Virus record (IMG/VR): IMGVR_UViG_3300031143_000017
Span: 1 to 36,466 of that record
DNA: 36,466 nt
DNA from: a virus
Reading direction: 5' to 3' (one strand)
The translations under genes and the position numbers were made by a program. Under the pieces are notes generated by a model. It was given only the letters and a program-made list of their open reading frames with translations, did not search any database and had not been told where the DNA came from. This document shows, in pieces, positions 2,458 to 31,521 of this stretch. How positions within the stretch are numbered: position 1 is the stretch's first letter; each line of letters opens with the position of its first letter.

Positions 2458-2681
2458 CTACCCCATTTATTGCAATACCATCAATCAAAGAATTTAAGGG
2501 TCGTATCCCTTCGGGTTATGACCTTGTTATCTACGAAACAGAATGTTCGCCAGTCGATGGCTACGTTCTCTACGGGTTCAATGAGATAGGGATGTTCGCA
2601 AAAGACTTTGTAAGTCCAGCGTATGGTTTCCTTTCAAGTGCATTTGATCACACAAACGAATTAGGAGTAATGAGCGTATGA
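2454..2681 (+). CDS. Hypothetical protein (75 aa)
   Basis: Second gene of the ATGA-coupled chain; it overlaps its neighbours by 4 nt at both ends. I recognise no family. It is acidic to neutral, rich in aromatic residues and glycine, and probably a small beta-rich soluble protein. There is no signal peptide. Its own Shine-Dalgarno is weak (GGAG at 2443-2446), consistent with coupled translation. Function unknown. Confidence 0.6.
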   Translation: MTTPFIAIPSIKEFKGRIPSGYDLVIYETECSPVDGYVLYGFNEIGMFAKDFVSPAYGFLSSAFDHTNELGVMSV

Positions 2682-3319
2682 GTATGACTCGATCTGAAGC
2701 TGGGCAAGTGGCAAGAGACTATGGACTCACCTATGATAACCTTGGCGACAAGTGGGCACTCTACTACCTAAAGAAGTCAAAGTCCATCAACACTAACCGA
2801 TTGCAGAACAGCGGAGTAGACAGTGGTCGATCTAAGGTCTATCAGAGTGAGTTTGCAGTTCAACGATTGTATCCAGAGTGTTCAAGTAACCTATCCGAAA
2901 AGGAATGTCAAAAGTACTTTAATCGTATTGTCAAGTCAAAGACATATCAGTCTTTGGTAACGGGTGATCGTGGTATGAGTGACCCTCAATTACGTTTTAT
3001 GAAGGCCTCTCAGAATGCTCGTGTTGCTGGACAGGCAAGTTACTATGGGATTGCACTGCGTCCCAATCACGGAACCAACAAGTACACCATCATCCATGAA
3101 CTGGCACACACGGCTGGGAACATGAATCACGATGTAGGGTTCCGACAAACATTAGTGAAGTTAGTCTCCCGTTTCTTGGGAGTACGGGTGGCGAAAGACT
3201 TGAAGAAAGAGTTTCGCTCTCGCAAGTTAAAGATGTCCGTTAGTCAAAGCATTATGTCCCCTTTGAAATGGTTAGAGAGTTATGAACGTATGGAGAAAAT
3301 ACGCAATGAAATTCGATGA
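2678..3319 (+). CDS. HExxH zinc metallopeptidase-like protein
   Basis: Residues 140-152 read HELAHTAGNMNHD: a gluzincin-type HExxH (H140, E141, H144) with a third histidine (H151) followed by DxxFR (152-156). This resembles SprT/Wss1-like and phage putative metallohydrolases with HELAH...H(D/G)xxFR, in which a zinc ion bound by the three histidines activates water for peptide hydrolysis. The last 55 residues are very basic. No signal peptide, so action in the host cytoplasm is expected. It is coupled by ATGA to the gene before and overlaps the next gene by 14 nt. The 213-aa length suits a single-domain protease. The substrate is unknown; processing of a phage or host DNA-associated protein is a guess. 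Confidence 0.65.
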   Translation: MSMTRSEAGQVARDYGLTYDNLGDKWALYYLKKSKSINTNRLQNSGVDSGRSKVYQSEFAVQRLYPECSSNLSEKECQKYFNRIVKSKTYQSLVTGDRGMSDPQLRFMKASQNARVAGQASYYGIALRPNHGTNKYTIIHELAHTAGNMNHDVGFRQTLVKLVSRFLGVRVAKDLKKEFRSRKLKMSVSQSIMSPLKWLESYERMEKIRNEIR

Positions 3320-3608: not shown

Positions 3609-3673
3609 TTGAGACAGTATTGTTTATAGTAGCAATGCAACTCCTTGTGACTGTCGTGGTAAGTTACATGTAA
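3605..3673 (+). CDS. Possible 22-aa membrane peptide
   Basis: ATG at 3605 overlaps the previous stop as ATGA, the same coupling seen at 2454 and 2678. The peptide MIETVLFIVAMQLLVTVVVS plus YM is almost entirely hydrophobic, one transmembrane span. Its stop lies at the edge of the 12-bp repeat array. The coupling pattern favours a real micro-protein (holin-like, or a superinfection-exclusion or membrane-regulatory type), but coding evidence from so few codons is thin. Confidence 0.4.
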   Translation: MIETVLFIVAMQLLVTVVVSYM

Positions 3674-3750
3674 TGTACATTGTAGTATACATTGTAATGT
3701 ACATTGTAGTATACATTGTAATGTACATTGTAGTATACATTGTAATGTAT
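3665..3750 (+). repeat. Array of alternating 12-bp repeats
   Basis: Seven consecutive half-units alternate between TACATTGTAATG (A) and TACATTGTAGTA (B). The first A unit (3665-3675) lacks one T; the rest are exact (B 3676-3687, A 3688-3699, B 3700-3711, A 3712-3723, B 3724-3735, A 3736-3747), giving a 24-bp period. ATGTACAT and GTATAC palindromes recur, so both DNA-protein binding and RNA hairpins are possible. It sits in the 3' end of the early operon just before its terminator. Confidence 0.95.
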
Positions 3751-3841: not shown

Positions 3842-4894
3842 ATGGCGACAACTGACAACACATTCTTCGCTGGCCGTGACGGGTTCGTCTGGTGGTTTGG
3901 TGTAATAGAAGATAGAAATGATCCACTAGCATTGGGTCGTGTACGAGCTCGTGTATATGGTTATCACACAGCAGATAAAACTAAACTTCCCACAGTAGAT
4001 TTACCTTGGGCAGTTTGCGTACAACCAACTACATCGGCATCTGCTGGCGGTATCGGTATGTCTCCCACAGGGCCTATTGAAGGTTCATGGGTATTTGGTT
4101 TCTGGCGTGACCCAGACTTTATGCAAGAACCTATGGTGATAGGAACAATTCCTGGCATCAACTCTCCTGAGTCTGCACCCACAGGTCAATCTCCACACGA
4201 CTACTCCCCCAATCAAGAACTACCTATTCCAGAAGTAGCTGCTTCTACAACACTGGGCGATGGTACTACAACAGAATTTTCTACACCAGCAGATACGACA
4301 GACTCTACAGTACTCGTTAAGATTAATGGAGTTGTGCAAGCAGCAGAAAACAATCCCCCCGAATCTCAAAACAATATAGAGATACCACCTGACTCTTATT
4401 ATGGTGATGGTGTTACAGTGGAAGCAAGTGCATTTGAAAGGTCAAGACATAAGACTAGACTTGCTGCTCGTATTAATGAGATCGCACCAGAACTGCGTCC
4501 CAAGTTTGTTAAGGGTGTTCAAACCTTCCTTGCTAAGAATGAAGATTATGATTGTATTATATCCTATGCATACATCTCTTCTGCACAGCAACAAGAACTA
4601 CATCGAACATATAAATCTGGTGGGAAAAATGCAGCAAGGCCAGGCAGTTCATGGCACAACTTCGGTGCAGCGATTGACTTTATTATTACAGATGTTTACG
4701 GCAATGCGCTTTGGGATAAGACTCTGTATGAAGGTATTGCTCGTACTGCATTCTCCACTGCAGGCTTGAAGAATGATATTGAAAATGATAGCGGACACTT
4801 CTACCCTAATGAATTTCCTAATAAGGTTGATGATAGATTGAAATCAAAAGAGATTACTTTGGCAGAATATTCCACAGAGAGGGGAGTTTCCTAA
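3842..4894 (+). CDS. 5: Baseplate hub protein: gp5-like OB-fold with M15 peptidase
   Basis: Residues about 15-105 match the gp5 OB-fold of T4-like hubs (FGVIEDRNDPLALGRVRARV, then DLPWAVCVQP), which forms the hub ring at the tail tip. Residues about 200-330 are a VanY/M15-type zinc peptidase: S270-x-H272-x-x-G-x-A-x-D279 and H319 (SGHFY) are the three zinc ligands. This replaces the T4 lysozyme domain, so peptidoglycan would be cut at cross-links rather than glycan. Between them, residues 137-165 (GDGTTTEF..., VLVKINGVVQ) look like the first half of a small beta-domain common in this phage's fibres; its second half starts the next gene. AAGGAG precedes ATG 3842. The stop and next start overlap as TAATG. 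Confidence 0.8.
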   Translation: MATTDNTFFAGRDGFVWWFGVIEDRNDPLALGRVRARVYGYHTADKTKLPTVDLPWAVCVQPTTSASAGGIGMSPTGPIEGSWVFGFWRDPDFMQEPMVIGTIPGINSPESAPTGQSPHDYSPNQELPIPEVAASTTLGDGTTTEFSTPADTTDSTVLVKINGVVQAAENNPPESQNNIEIPPDSYYGDGVTVEASAFERSRHKTRLAARINEIAPELRPKFVKGVQTFLAKNEDYDCIISYAYISSAQQQELHRTYKSGGKNAARPGSSWHNFGAAIDFIITDVYGNALWDKTLYEGIARTAFSTAGLKNDIENDSGHFYPNEFPNKVDDRLKSKEITLAEYSTERGVS

Positions 4895-6843
4895 TGTCGT
4901 ATAGAATTGAAGCAGGCAAGGTAGTCTTCCAAGATGCACCAAGAGAAGGTTCTGAAGTTGAGATAGTTGTATCCACAGTAAACACTCTTAAAGGATTTAC
5001 TGACCCAAGAGGGTTCTATCCTCGTAGAGTTAATGAGGCAGACACTAATCGACTTGCGGTTAACGATGCACGAAACCAACACCCTGTCAACAAGTTTAAG
5101 AAAGATAATCTAGATGACTTAACGGGTGAACCAGCTCCGTCTTACAATGCACAATACCCTTTCAACCATGTACGGGAAACCGAAAGTGGTCATATTCAAG
5201 AGATGGATGATACGCCAGGCCACGAGCGTATTCACGAATACCATCGTTCTGGTACGTTCTACGAAATACATCCAGACGGAACTAAGGTAACAAAGATTGT
5301 TGGTGACGGGTTTGAAATCGTTCATCAAAACAAACATGTTCGTGTTCGTGGTAACATGAAAGTCTTTGTTGATGGTGATGCGTCTTTGTATGTCCGTGGC
5401 AGTATGGATGCTCAGGTTGATGAGAACTTAAATTTCAATGTCGGTAAGAACATAGACTTCCATGCAGGCAAGAACATTCGTATGTTTGCAAATGAATCTA
5501 TTGAGATGACAGCACAGACAACTATGGCACAACAGTCTGTTGGAAAGTTCTTACAACAATCTGTAGGGGATATGCAAATAGTTACTAGTGGTAACTTTAC
5601 AAATTCTGTTCATGGTAACTATGACATGGTGTTGGATGGTAATTCCCTCACAGATATTAAAGGTACACTTACTACCAACATCACGGGTGCAGTTGCATTG
5701 AACACAGAAGTAACTTACACTGTCGCATCAACTGGTGCAATGGTACTTGACACTGCTGGAGCATTGAACATAGGTTCTGCTGGTGCAATGAATCTTTCTG
5801 GTGCGACAATCGACTTGAACTCTGTTACAAGAAGTGCGGTAACGATCACTCCTATTGTACCTCGCACAACTCCATCCCCTGCTATTGGTGAAGACATTAC
5901 ACCAGAAGTTACATTCATGGACACTGGAGATATTGCAACAGGCATTCTACCTTGGAGTATTAATATTGGTGAGTACGAGCTTGATACATTCTCTACAAAG
6001 ATTGCTGCAATGAAACTTGCAGACATCAAGGCGGATAAAGCATTCATCCCTCTAACTGAATCAGATAGCTTCTTTGCAGGTGATGATGAAGAGAAGACTG
6101 ATAGTGATATCAAAACTGCAATTGAATCGGGTGAGGTATTGCCCTCGACTTTCTCTGACTACTCTTATAATTCACTAACAGGAAAAATTAATACCAGTGG
6201 CGCAACTAGAAAGGCTGTATCTTTACCTCGCATACCAGATGAAGGTGAAGAACATGGTACGTTAGGTTCTGACTTTATAGCGACTCCAGTTGCAACTTCC
6301 ATAACATCTTCAGCTGAGATTGCACAAGCAAATTCTAAGTATGATACTTCTGGTAATGTTATTGGTGGGGTAAACTATTCTCTTCCTCTATCTACACACT
6401 TCACACTTGGACAACTATCCAAGAACTCTGTTGTCGCATCTTCGACAATCGCCAATGGTGGCAATGAAGGTAAGACACAGAAACAAATTATTGACAAACT
6501 TAAAACTCTTGCGGTGCATGTTCTCGACCCAATCAAAGAACAGTATCCTGATATGATAGTCACTAATGCTTACAGAGGTAGGGCTGGTACAAGTCAACAT
6601 AACATTGGTGAAGCTGCGGATATTCAATTCCCTGGCCTCGCAAAATCTGGATACTTTGCAAGAGCTCAATGGATGAGAGAAAACATTCCCCATGATAAAT
6701 TGATTCTTGAATTTAAGAATACAGGTTCGGGACTTCCTTGGATACATATATCTTGTAAGGAAACTGGAAACGCTGCTCTCATTTTAACAATGTATAACCA
6801 TAGAAACTATAAGGAAACTGGTAAGTTTTACCAGTTGGCATAG
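4894..6843 (+). CDS. Spike needle protein: gp5C-like beta-helix with second M15 peptidase
   Basis: Residues about 95-130 (ETESGHIQEMDDTPGHERIH, SGTFYEIHPDGT) are the conserved entry to the gp5 C-terminal needle. A repetitive beta-helix follows to about 315 (VRGNMKVFVDGDASLYVRG and similar), forming the trimeric membrane-puncturing spike. Residues about 500-640 are a second peptidase of M15_3 type: S567-Q-H569-N-I-G-E-A-A-D576 and H618 (WIHIS). The first 26 residues (SYRIEAGKVVFQDAPREG...) resemble the second half of a fibre beta-domain whose first half is in the preceding gene. T4 gp5 is cut between its lysozyme and needle; here the break is made by separate genes. At 649 aa it is much longer than T4 gp5C. 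Confidence 0.75.
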   Translation: MSYRIEAGKVVFQDAPREGSEVEIVVSTVNTLKGFTDPRGFYPRRVNEADTNRLAVNDARNQHPVNKFKKDNLDDLTGEPAPSYNAQYPFNHVRETESGHIQEMDDTPGHERIHEYHRSGTFYEIHPDGTKVTKIVGDGFEIVHQNKHVRVRGNMKVFVDGDASLYVRGSMDAQVDENLNFNVGKNIDFHAGKNIRMFANESIEMTAQTTMAQQSVGKFLQQSVGDMQIVTSGNFTNSVHGNYDMVLDGNSLTDIKGTLTTNITGAVALNTEVTYTVASTGAMVLDTAGALNIGSAGAMNLSGATIDLNSVTRSAVTITPIVPRTTPSPAIGEDITPEVTFMDTGDIATGILPWSINIGEYELDTFSTKIAAMKLADIKADKAFIPLTESDSFFAGDDEEKTDSDIKTAIESGEVLPSTFSDYSYNSLTGKINTSGATRKAVSLPRIPDEGEEHGTLGSDFIATPVATSITSSAEIAQANSKYDTSGNVIGGVNYSLPLSTHFTLGQLSKNSVVASSTIANGGNEGKTQKQIIDKLKTLAVHVLDPIKEQYPDMIVTNAYRGRAGTSQHNIGEAADIQFPGLAKSGYFARAQWMRENIPHDKLILEFKNTGSGLPWIHISCKETGNAALILTMYNHRNYKETGKFYQLA

Positions 6844-6846
6844 GAG

Positions 6847-7149
6847 ATGCCAGCAATTTGCAGAGTGGGTGACGCACTAAATACAGGACACAGTTGTAGT
6901 ACTACGTCAACTATTGACACAGCTAATACTGACGGAACTGTTAAAGCAAACGGAATAAATATAATAGTTGTTGGTGCTCCAACAGTTTCACATACCCACA
7001 CAGGTGACAGCTGTCAGACATCTCATGTAGTTACCTTGTCTGCTGGTTCTGGTACTGTTAGTATTAATGGCAAGAAGGTGGGTAGAGTGACAGACGCAAT
7101 TGATGCTGGTGCAATGACAGCAGGCAGTGGAAATGTTTCCACTGGTTAA
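6847..7149 (+). CDS. PAAR-repeat spike tip protein (T4 gp5.4 role)
   Basis: The start MPAICRVGDALNTGHSC, the repeated short beta segments (VKANGINIIVVG, GTVSINGKKVGRVTDAIDAG) and histidines H15, H49, H51 and H60 with C17 and C56 fit PAAR proteins, which cap the spike as a sharp zinc-stabilised cone. Its length of 100 aa suits the family. It follows the needle gene by 3 nt; AGGAG sits right against the ATG, too close for normal use, so translation is probably coupled to the gene before. It would attach to the free end of the needle and be the first part to meet the outer membrane. Confidence 0.8.
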   Translation: MPAICRVGDALNTGHSCSTTSTIDTANTDGTVKANGINIIVVGAPTVSHTHTGDSCQTSHVVTLSAGSGTVSINGKKVGRVTDAIDAGAMTAGSGNVSTG

Positions 7150-7159
7150 GGAGAAGTAA

Positions 7160-7561
7160 ATGTACGAGTACACATGTAAGATAGTTAAAGTGATTGATGG
7201 TGATACCACAGATGTTGATATTGACTTAGGGTTTGGTGTTTGGTTACACAAACAACGAGTTAGGTTCTTTGGTATCGACACACCAGAATCTAGAACAAGA
7301 GACTTAGAAGAAAAGAAGTACGGACTCGCATCAAAGGAATATGTGTTGAATGCCATGCCTGTAGGTTCTACTCAAACCTTAGTCACTGTTAAAGATGGTA
7401 AGGGTAAGTACGGAAGAATACTTGGAAAGTTCAGATTGGAAGATGGTAGTATTCTTAATGACAATATGATTAAAGAACATCATGCAGTAGCATACTTCGG
7501 ACAATGTAAAGAAGATATTGAAGATGAACATATTGCAAACCGATCTTTCATTAATCTCTAG
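7160..7561 (+). CDS. Staphylococcal-nuclease-like (thermonuclease) protein
   Basis: A complete SNase fold of 133 aa with all catalytic positions visible: VIDGDT (D15), RVRFFGIDTPES (R35, D40, T41, E43) and KYGRILGK (R86), almost the numbering of micrococcal nuclease (D21, R35, D40, E43, R87). The family hydrolyses DNA or RNA with calcium. No signal peptide is present. GGAG precedes the ATG. Its place between the PAAR tip and gp25 suggests a virion-associated or late role: attacking host DNA at entry, or competing phage DNA. Similar nucleases occur near tail genes in marine T4-like phages; the true role is not known to me. Confidence 0.8.
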   Translation: MYEYTCKIVKVIDGDTTDVDIDLGFGVWLHKQRVRFFGIDTPESRTRDLEEKKYGLASKEYVLNAMPVGSTQTLVTVKDGKGKYGRILGKFRLEDGSILNDNMIKEHHAVAYFGQCKEDIEDEHIANRSFINL

Positions 7562-23604: not shown

Positions 23605-24411
23605 ATGTCGTATATAGGTACTCCATTCCACAATCAAGTCTCACCTGCTTTTCATCAGGAAGATTTCACTGACTCTAGTTTTGGAAATATTACAGTAGGT
23701 TCTATTACTCACGCCAATGCAGTCGCTCTAACTGAGTCTGTGCCAGGCAGTAACGCAGAAAACTTACAGGTTGTGATTAATAACGTAATCCAACAAGGTA
23801 CAAGTGCATACACTATTCACCAGAACGCAGCTGGCGAACCTAAGATTTTAAAACTTTCTGAGGCCGCAGCAAGTAGTTCAACTATTTACGTTATGCATAG
23901 AGGGATTGGTTCTTTCCAAATTAAACCGCCCACTGGTTCTGTTGGTGCAACTGAACTTGCCGCAAATTTAAAGTCATTTACAACTGACTTATTCACTGGT
24001 AATGGTTCTGCTACCGCATTCACTCTGTCAGAGAATCCTCCAAACGCAAACTCCGTGTTAGTGTTTGTTGATGGTATCCTACAGAAGTCCAGCACTAACT
24101 ATTCAATCAATGGCACTACACTTACATTCACTGGTGCTCCAGACGCAAGTGCAGAGATTGAAGCAAAACACTTTGGTATTCGTGGAGTGGTTCGTAGAAG
24201 TACAGATTATCAGTTAGATGTATTCGCTGGTAATGGTAGTGCAACTGCATTCACATTATCAAGTGGAACTTCAACAACAAACAGTGCATTCATTTTCTAT
24301 AATGGTATCGCTATGAAACCTACTACAGACTATTCAATCAGCGGTTCAACATTAACATTCACATTTGCGCCTGTTAATACATCCGAAATCATGGCGAGGT
24401 ATCAAAGCTAA
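23605..24411 (+). CDS. Fibre protein with three tandem beta-domains
   Basis: After MSYIGTPFHNQVSPAF the protein holds about three copies of one domain of 60-65 residues: a diverged first one (about 45-105) and two clear ones, each running from GNGSATAFTLS through a V.VDGI.Q-like strand to YSI.G.TLTF..AP. The same domain appears at 26434, 29743 and 30742 and, divided, in the two hub/spike genes. It is probably a fibre shaft or attachment module. The stop overlaps the next start by 1 nt, which suggests that the following small genes are co-translated and perhaps co-assembled. Confidence 0.65.
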   Translation: MSYIGTPFHNQVSPAFHQEDFTDSSFGNITVGSITHANAVALTESVPGSNAENLQVVINNVIQQGTSAYTIHQNAAGEPKILKLSEAAASSSTIYVMHRGIGSFQIKPPTGSVGATELAANLKSFTTDLFTGNGSATAFTLSENPPNANSVLVFVDGILQKSSTNYSINGTTLTFTGAPDASAEIEAKHFGIRGVVRRSTDYQLDVFAGNGSATAFTLSSGTSTTNSAFIFYNGIAMKPTTDYSISGSTLTFTFAPVNTSEIMARYQS

Positions 24412-29742: not shown

Positions 29743-30384
29743 ATGAGTTATATAGGTAACGAACCCTCGTATGGTGTGTTCGACAGACAGGTTCTTGCGG
29801 GCAATGGGTCAACTACACAATACAGCTTAGATTTTTTGGTTTCACAACCTACTTCTTTACTTGTCTCTATTGATGGTGTAGTACAAGAACCAGAACATTC
29901 TTATACTATAGGACAATCTGGTGGTGTGGGGCATATCAACTTCTCTGAAGCACCAGACAACGCGGCAAGAATATTTCTCATTTACATGGGAAGACAACTT
30001 CTTACTGCACAAGCATCGACTGCCATATCACAAACACGTTTAGATGAATTTAACGGAAATGCTTCTACGACTGCATTTGTATTATCAACCACACCAGTAT
30101 CAAGTGCTGCTGTAAATTTTATGATTTATGTAGACAATGTATATCAAAGAGGTGGGAATGGACTTGCTTTTACAGTATCAGGTTCCACAGTAAACTTTAC
30201 ATCTGCACCAGCATCAGGCACAAAGAACATTCAAGTATATCAATTGAATGGTGTGAACACACTAAATACTGTCGCTGATGGTGCAATAACAACAGCGAAA
30301 CTTGGCAACGGATCGGTAACTGTAGGCAAGTTGAATTTCAGCCCAGAAGATGACGCAACTGCTCTTGCGATTGCTTTAGGATAA
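29743..30384 (+). CDS. Fibre protein with two beta-domains (213 aa)
   Basis: Begins MSYIGNEPSYGVFDRQVLAG and holds two copies of the GNGSTT-type domain (GNGSTTQYSLDF...VSIDGVVQEPEHSYTI; GNASTTAFVLS...FTVSGSTVNFTSAP). A linker (VADGAITTAKLGNGSVTVGK) leads to the ending EDDATALAIALG, shared with the gene at 22809. It appears to be an attachment module without a head. The block 29743-30398-30742 mirrors 22809-23248-23605. Confidence 0.65.
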   Translation: MSYIGNEPSYGVFDRQVLAGNGSTTQYSLDFLVSQPTSLLVSIDGVVQEPEHSYTIGQSGGVGHINFSEAPDNAARIFLIYMGRQLLTAQASTAISQTRLDEFNGNASTTAFVLSTTPVSSAAVNFMIYVDNVYQRGGNGLAFTVSGSTVNFTSAPASGTKNIQVYQLNGVNTLNTVADGAITTAKLGNGSVTVGKLNFSPEDDATALAIALG

Positions 30385-30741: not shown

Positions 30742-31521
30742 ATGCCATTTTTAGGTAACACGCCAGCACAGGGGTTTGCAGAATCCATAACTAAGGATAG
30801 TTTCACTCCAAATGGTTCTACGACTGCATTCACACTAAGTAAAACTGCAGCCACAAATAGTATATCAGTCTTTGTAGGTAATGTTCGACAAGAACCTACG
30901 TCTTCTTATTCTGTTTCGGGAACAACTCTTAATATGACAGAAGCTCCCTCGACAGGGACTAGCTTCTATGTACTGCATTCACAGGGAACTATTGAGAGCA
31001 CTACTGTTCTTCCAGCTGGAAGTGTGGTTACTAACTCTTTAGCCAGTTCTATAGACTTGAGTGGTAAGACAGTTACTTATGGATTGGTAAATACGGATAT
31101 GCCCACAGGGGCAGTGTTGCAAGTGGTTCAAGGGGTTAATGCAACTCAACTAGCACTAACCACAACAAGTTACACAGACTCAGGTTTAAGTGCCTCTATT
31201 ACCCCTTCATCTACATCAAACAAAATATTAGTTATGTGGAATACTCAGGGCGCGTTAACAAATGCTTCAACTAGAGGATGGGGTTCCCGTATATTACGAA
31301 ACTCTGCTATAGCATTTACAGACACAACAAATTATAGGACTTATGGGGATGGAAATACGGGAGACATAAGACTAACAATATCTCAGTCACATTTAGACTC
31401 TCCTTCTACAACTTCTGCTATTACATATAAAGTTCAAGTATCTCCACACAATACTTCTAGTACTACATTTAACCAAGGTAATGTCCAGACGCAAATAACA
31501 TTAATGGAGATCAAAGGCTAA
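30742..31521 (+). CDS. Fibre protein with attachment domain and head paralogue F
   Basis: Same three-part plan as the gene at 26434: start MPFLGNTPAQGFAESITKDS, the GNGSTT-type beta-domain (NGSTTAFTLS, VFVGNVRQEP, YSVSGTTLNM), the linker ASSIDLSGKTVT and the head (PTGAVLQVVQ, SASITPSSTSNKILVMW, HLDSPSTTSAITYKVQV, ITLMEIKG). The conserved head frame with a diverged centre suggests alternative binding tips on a constant stem. The stop overlaps the next start as TAATG. Confidence 0.7.
   Translation: MPFLGNTPAQGFAESITKDSFTPNGSTTAFTLSKTAATNSISVFVGNVRQEPTSSYSVSGTTLNMTEAPSTGTSFYVLHSQGTIESTTVLPAGSVVTNSLASSIDLSGKTVTYGLVNTDMPTGAVLQVVQGVNATQLALTTTSYTDSGLSASITPSSTSNKILVMWNTQGALTNASTRGWGSRILRNSAIAFTDTTNYRTYGDGNTGDIRLTISQSHLDSPSTTSAITYKVQVSPHNTSSTTFNQGNVQTQITLMEIKG

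Follow-up and report, generated by a model that had tools for sequence, protein, structure and literature searches.

Complementary halves of a fibre-type beta-domain are encoded by the adjacent hub and needle genes of a T4-like marine myophage

The window, which is the whole stretch of 36,466 nucleotides in IMG/VR virus record IMGVR_UViG_3300031143_000017, carries a T4-like baseplate cluster around two adjacent genes, designated A and B. The order is gene A, gene B, a PAAR-like tip gene, an SNase-like gene, gp25, gp6 and further baseplate wedge genes. Related loci are cited by L number. The features used below were as follows.

3842..4894, + strand: gene A, hub protein of 350 aa, with Gp5 OB domain, beta-domain half 1 and M15 peptidase
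3866..4156, + strand: Gp5 N-terminal OB domain, residues 9-105 (PF06714, E 2e-18; alignment A1)
4241..4339, + strand: fibre-type beta-domain half 1, residues 134-166, ending VLVKINGVVQ (hhalign to template columns 5-35)
4340..4405, + strand: flexible linker of ~22 residues from half 1 to the peptidase (pLDDT 32; mean identity 53%)
4406..4891, + strand: inserted M15 (VanY / L-Ala-D-Glu endopeptidase-like) domain, up to the gene A C-terminus (PF02557; Foldseek; ligands)
4877..4886, + strand: purine-rich Shine-Dalgarno-like run (GAGAGGGGAG) within the last gene A codons, 7 nt upstream of the gene B ATG
4892..4896, + strand: TAATG, gene A stop overlapping the gene B start (read from the sequence)
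4894..6843, + strand: gene B, spike protein of 649 aa, with half 2, linker, gp5C-type beta-helix and second M15 peptidase
4897..4974, + strand: beta-domain half 2, gene B residues 2-27, SYRIEAGKVVFQDAPREGSEVEIVVS (template columns 40-63 by hhalign; strands predicted in the read-through model)
4993..5064, + strand: GFTDPRGFYPRRVNEADTNRLAVN linker of gene B (C-terminal part of PF06714, model 71-118; follows the OB domain in unsplit hubs)
5155..5853, + strand: gp5C-type trimeric beta-helix (needle), approximate limits (phrog_430, E 4e-63)
6379..6801, + strand: second, C-terminal M15-like peptidase on the spike (phrog_894 endolysin, E 2.7e-14)
6847..7149, + strand: PAAR-like tip protein gene, directly 3′ of the spike gene (PF05488, E 3.9e-4, below cut-off)
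23605..24411, + strand: fibre protein with three complete beta-domain copies (DUF4183, E 3.4e-5)
29743..30384, + strand: fibre protein with two complete beta-domain copies
30742..31521, + strand: fibre protein with a single complete beta-domain, used as the reference copy in the first-pass annotation

LGDGTTTEF occupies residues 138-146 and VLVKINGVVQ residues 157-166 of the gene A product, and the gene B product begins MSYRIEAGKVVFQDAPREGSEVEIVV. The genes have one base in common, within the TAATG that the first-pass annotation had correctly read as the stop of the first polypeptide joined to the next ATG. The Gp5 N-terminal OB domain of the gp5 family was present in gene A above the PF06714 cut-off, and the gp5C-type needle in gene B, matched by phrog_430, was also matched by Gp5_trimer_C (E 1.2e-4, under the Pfam cut-off). 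The Pfam model Gp5_OB was itself divided between the proteins, with model positions 10-91 on the hub and 71-118 on the gene B product.

Around these genes, the gap 5′ of the hub gene contained 3.6 tandem copies of a 24-bp unit (TACATTGTAATGTACATTGTAGTA) at 3665-3749, and the protein encoded at 2678-3319 had a TIIHELAHT zinc-metallopeptidase-like motif and no Pfam match. The gene at 7160-7561, between the PAAR-like and gp25 genes, was staphylococcal-nuclease-like (PF00565, E 1e-10); a 'nuclease-like protein' is found at the equivalent position in Melnitz. No tRNA was found in the window. A domain related to the second M15-like peptidase (6379-6801) is also C-terminal in the unsplit hub L096, with ~41% identity to the spike copy of L099. 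Since this domain adds a second M15-like enzyme, each end of the needle has a wall peptidase of its own in this hub, and the two differ.

To compare the two segments flanking the gene break with the fibre beta-domain, a template profile was built from six beta-domain copies in three fibre proteins, all within the window, and profiles of the halves were built from 37 distinct relatives. Profile-profile scoring was performed with hhalign, using 300 column-shuffles as controls. Half 1 alone scored 23.2 on template columns 5-35 (shuffles: mean 8.6, max 16.8) and half 2 alone scored 25.0 on template columns 40-63 (shuffles: mean 8.3, max 14.6), which bears out the first-pass matches of hub residues 137-165 and of the gene B start to the first and second halves of the fibre domain at 30742. 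The joined halves scored 40.6 (P 5.6e-8), above all shuffles; half 1 joined to shuffled half 2 gave a mean of 25.7 and a maximum of 30.9, shuffled half 1 joined to half 2 a mean of 25.9 and a maximum of 33.2, and the halves in reversed order 24.6. The two halves lay on the template in order and without overlap, with ~4 hairpin residues absent at the join. The likeness of the halves to the fibre domains is beyond chance, and hub residues 134-166 and gene B residues 2-27 are confirmed as complementary halves of one fibre-type beta-domain. That domain is complete on one chain in fibres and is here divided over genes A and B.

DUF4183 was matched across the join of the halves, below cut-off. Simple HMM scoring of the joined halves was weak per sequence: the window pair scored 15.7 bits, a value reached by 14 of 1525 foreign N-termini, the top two of which were other fibre-domain proteins of the window. 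This scoring was superseded by the profile-profile comparison with shuffles. As beta-domain halves, the most divergent members (L051-L053, L057, L058 and L062) scored weakly. A search of solved structures with an alignment of the fibre copies and the joined halves gave matches to the P-SCSP1u fibre (8i4m) at E 2.9e-7 and, at E 1.5e-7, to a capsule depolymerase (9k4a). 8i4m carries seven extra residues in the loop equivalent to the beta-domain hairpin; the hairpin therefore tolerates insertions.

Between the halves lie 184-185 residues that contain the VanY-like peptidase, in agreement with the roughly 185 residues noted at first pass. Pfam VanY matched gene A with E 2e-4 and 21.4 bits, below the curated cut-off of 25, and the M15 fold was identified by Foldseek (2vo9, Ply500, E 1.6e-5, prob 1.00; 6akv, LysB4, E 1.9e-4). 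The metal ligands H272, D279 and H323 (L019 numbering) were invariant in alignment A6; the M15 ligand motif SxHxxxxxxxD ... H was present in 54 of 55 distinct relatives and DxGHFY in all 55. In the window hub and in one other pair, the M15 YRS motif has Ile in place of Arg (AYISSAQQ in the window hub, residues ~243-250); this Arg is present in 52/55 distinct relatives, and the metal ligands of the window hub are intact. In L027, an in-frame TAG (L027:2828-2830) lies inside the hub peptidase in a reading frame that is otherwise open, and reflects either an error in sequencing or a genuine nonsense mutation. An intein as the identity of the insert was set aside because of the M15 fold and the terminal stop codon.

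Among the relatives found outside the split group, the inserted peptidase was closest in sequence, at 37-40% identity, to C-terminal modules encoded by baseplate genes of other marine T4-like loci (L257, L268-L273). The L268 gene ends at about the place where gene A ends, which puts the break at the natural end of the module and suggests that the peptidase may have brought its own stop codon.

Genes A and B were separate ORFs in 107/107 locus pairs in which both genes were readable (55 distinct). The 107 junctions comprised 98 TAATG (frame relation -1), 3 ATGA (-4) and 6 in-frame TAAGAAATG (+3); in L062 the junction was TAACATG (+1). A Shine-Dalgarno-like purine-rich run with 3-6 matching bases was found in the last gene A codons at 34/34 distinct junctions, all of which kept the ATG at the break. 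Frame relations vary among relatives, and therefore no common recoding event restores one chain; on the same ground, a recoding signal (slippery site or read-through) was ruled out. In an OB-domain tree that combined 22 split with 70 unsplit hubs, a single change accounted for the split state (branch SH-aLRT 99). Mean identity was 0.65 in the halves and 0.49-0.53 in the adjoining segments. Both halves were under purifying selection (dN/dS 0.22 for half 1 and 0.25 for half 2), the retention of both parts that marks insertional gene fission. The gene break is real and old, and has a single origin.

For structure prediction, use was made of L019-L022, in which both frames are in register (TAA GAA ATG), so that reading through the TAA gives a single chain with both halves; the L019 translation could therefore be folded as one chain. 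The AlphaFold run was performed with 33 alignment rows in which the halves were correctly placed, and alignments A2 and A4 were excluded because MAFFT had shifted hub C-termini onto half 2. In the read-through model, half 1 had pLDDT 73/81/61 in residues 131-140/141-150/151-160 and predicted strands at 131-138, 145-147 and 156-161, and half 2 (351-380) had pLDDT 66/77/68 and predicted strands at 357-361, 364-367 and 376-383. When the hub was modelled alone, with the same hub family in the alignment, the half 1 blocks fell to pLDDT 29/27/22 with zero strands. The peptidase was confident in both models. The read-through model was modest overall (mean pLDDT 55, pTM 0.40, OB domain <60) and is a monomer only. 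Foldseek with the predicted beta-domain returned weak, short matches (a DUF4183 protein over 28 columns, rmsd 1.1; T7 fibre over 39 columns, rmsd 1.9). In these AlphaFold models, folding of half 1 is thus predicted only for the chain that also contains half 2. The first-pass proposal that the halves complete one domain is computationally well supported, by the complementary profile scores and by the contrast between the read-through and hub-alone models, and assembly of the halves in trans is predicted.

Unsplit relatives were represented by Vibrio D479 and PG216, DLP6, Mosig, HTVC008M, L096 and ~90 viral-contig ORFs. The ~99 unsplit outgroup ORFs containing hub OB and needle had neither M15 nor beta-domain at that place. 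In unsplit hubs the OB domain leads to the linker and needle directly or via other inserts, and the nearest of them have no enzyme between OB and needle. An unsplit hub with the whole beta-domain was not found with hub queries from divergent members, with an OB profile or in a motif screen of the 99 ORFs; L294, L314 and L315, which matched beyond the OB domain, were without it. The unsplit OB-beta-domain-gp5C gene that had been anticipated among related phages was thus not found in these searches, and no relative was found with the peptidase in an unsplit context. The order of insertion and break is accordingly inferred.

In P-SSM2, the OB and needle genes are separate. L268 belongs to a marine T4-like lineage with a second break, at the GFxDP linker: at L268:3-4207, a gene ending in Amidase_2 is followed by one that starts at a GFSDPEGQYP linker and continues into the needle and a C-terminal M15; no OB match was found in the L268 fragments. 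Given the separate genes of P-SSM2 and the L268-type break, separation of hub and needle genes is not unique. What sets the split group apart is a break inside a shared domain.

Taken together, these results make it likely that the hub and needle of this T4-like marine myophage are two polypeptides that share one beta-domain and are joined in trans. The ancestor would have been an unsplit, enzyme-free OB-needle gene. A fibre-type beta-domain would have come to separate the OB domain from the GFxDP linker, and an M15 peptidoglycan peptidase would then have entered its hairpin loop, the frame ending at the natural C-terminus of the peptidase. Translation of gene B would restart on the overlapping ATG by means of the Shine-Dalgarno-like run in the peptidase end. 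Protein A would consist of the OB domain, the first strands, a flexible tether and M15, and protein B of the last strands, linker, trimeric needle and second M15. Three A and three B would assemble, each A-B pair completing one beta-domain, which would serve as the needle-hub joint in place of a covalent link. The peptidase would be looped out on its ~22-residue flexible linker with a free C-terminus, and may open the host cell wall. It is possible, although on balance doubtful, that the completed domain is also a release joint that holds in the virion, parts on puncture and frees the hub-tethered peptidase, the whole being an independent, gene-encoded two-chain spike.

An unlikely alternative is that the halves are relics which survive in A as a disordered tail and in B as a short extension of the N-terminus, and that the proteins meet through OB-needle contacts alone. 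This would fit the disorder of half 1 in the hub-alone model, and also the most divergent branch, in which half 1 reads VLVTKDGESD, with the NGVVQ signature lost, and has a score close to zero. However, both halves exceed their flanks in conservation and are under purifying selection, their strand patterns are retained down to ~50% hub identity, and they fold together in the read-through model. It is hardly credible that stop read-through or frameshifting yields a single chain, with the domain completed in cis and the break only apparent: L019-L022 could give a read-through product, but close relatives differ in frame, as does L062, and the Shine-Dalgarno-like run and ATG stand at the break in every distinct junction.

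The shared domain joined in trans, as preferred here, must also be set against T4. T4 gp5 is cut between Ser351 and Ala352, in the linker between lysozyme and needle, and both parts are kept, as (gp27-gp5*-gp5C)3 (PMC3004832). The first-pass annotation had proposed that gene splitting could replace this maturation cleavage, and the functional parallel stands; the historical part is not supported. A scenario in which an ancestral hub containing an enzyme was cleaved in each virion, and its gene was later split at the cleavage site so that the break stands in for the T4 cut, is very improbable. The order of OB, wall enzyme, break and needle is that of mature T4 gp5* and gp5C (PMC3004832), but the enzymes are unrelated (M15 peptidase vs T4-type lysozyme) and lie on opposite sides of the linker: in T4 gp5 the GFxDP..YPRR..DTN linker (GFSDPTGQYPRRLGNDTN) precedes the lysozyme, and here it follows the peptidase. 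The insertion sites are therefore not homologous, and the enzymes were gained at different places. OB and needle genes are, moreover, separate in other lineages such as P-SSM2, and no enzyme stands between OB and needle in the nearest unsplit relatives; the two-chain outcome is thus a route convergent with T4 and not a substitute for an inherited cut.

The locus presents an essential trimeric injection machine whose continuity would run through a domain common to two gene products, an arrangement kept across a widespread group of marine phages. As a natural experiment, it bears on the reason for the chain break in the T4 spike, with another enzyme, another insertion site and gene fission vs proteolysis. 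The annotation is corrected, in that an 'OB domain protein' and a 'tail lysozyme' are one device, and the split beta-domain may serve protein work as a ready-made two-part docking domain. No earlier description of split hubs was found in the literature searched, with most subscription journals outside its coverage.

Among the closest known systems are the Methylophilales phages Melnitz EXVC043M/044M/040M/039M (MZ577095-98), which have the same two genes with the same overlap, a hub 63% identical and an identical architecture. In EXVC044M the genes are annotated as 'OB domain protein' and 'baseplate hub subunit/tail lysozyme'; the deposited annotation is silent on a shared domain, and neither the hub nor its lysozyme nor any peptidase is discussed in the main text of the Melnitz paper. 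The beta-domains of T7 and cyanophage tail fibres (DUF4183-like; P-SCSP1u gp28, 8i4m; K1-specific depolymerase, 9k4a) agree in sequence pattern and segment order, but are complete on one chain and lie in fibres, whereas the present one is in a hub. Ply500 and LysB4 share the fold, by Foldseek, and the metal-ligand motif with the inserted peptidase; they are free lysins, whereas the peptidase is part of a hub protein. P-SSM2 encodes its OB protein and VgrG-like beta-helix protein separately, but no shared domain is seen across that break and M15 is absent at that place. In mitochondrial cox2 fission (PMC5374615), an insertion likewise splits a gene into two complementary genes, but the protein is unrelated, and the present case concerns a phage gene into which an enzyme domain is inserted. 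T4 gp5/gp5C shares with the present hub an OB domain, a needle formed by a trimeric beta-helix, an enzyme that degrades the wall and lies between these two, and a break after that enzyme. In T4, OB and needle are on one gene product with a T4-type lysozyme between them; here there are two ORFs and an M15/VanY enzyme. The T4 break is made by proteolysis, after a lysozyme that follows the GFxDP linker, whereas here the break is encoded in the DNA, follows an M15 peptidase that precedes the linker, and lies inside a domain of its own.
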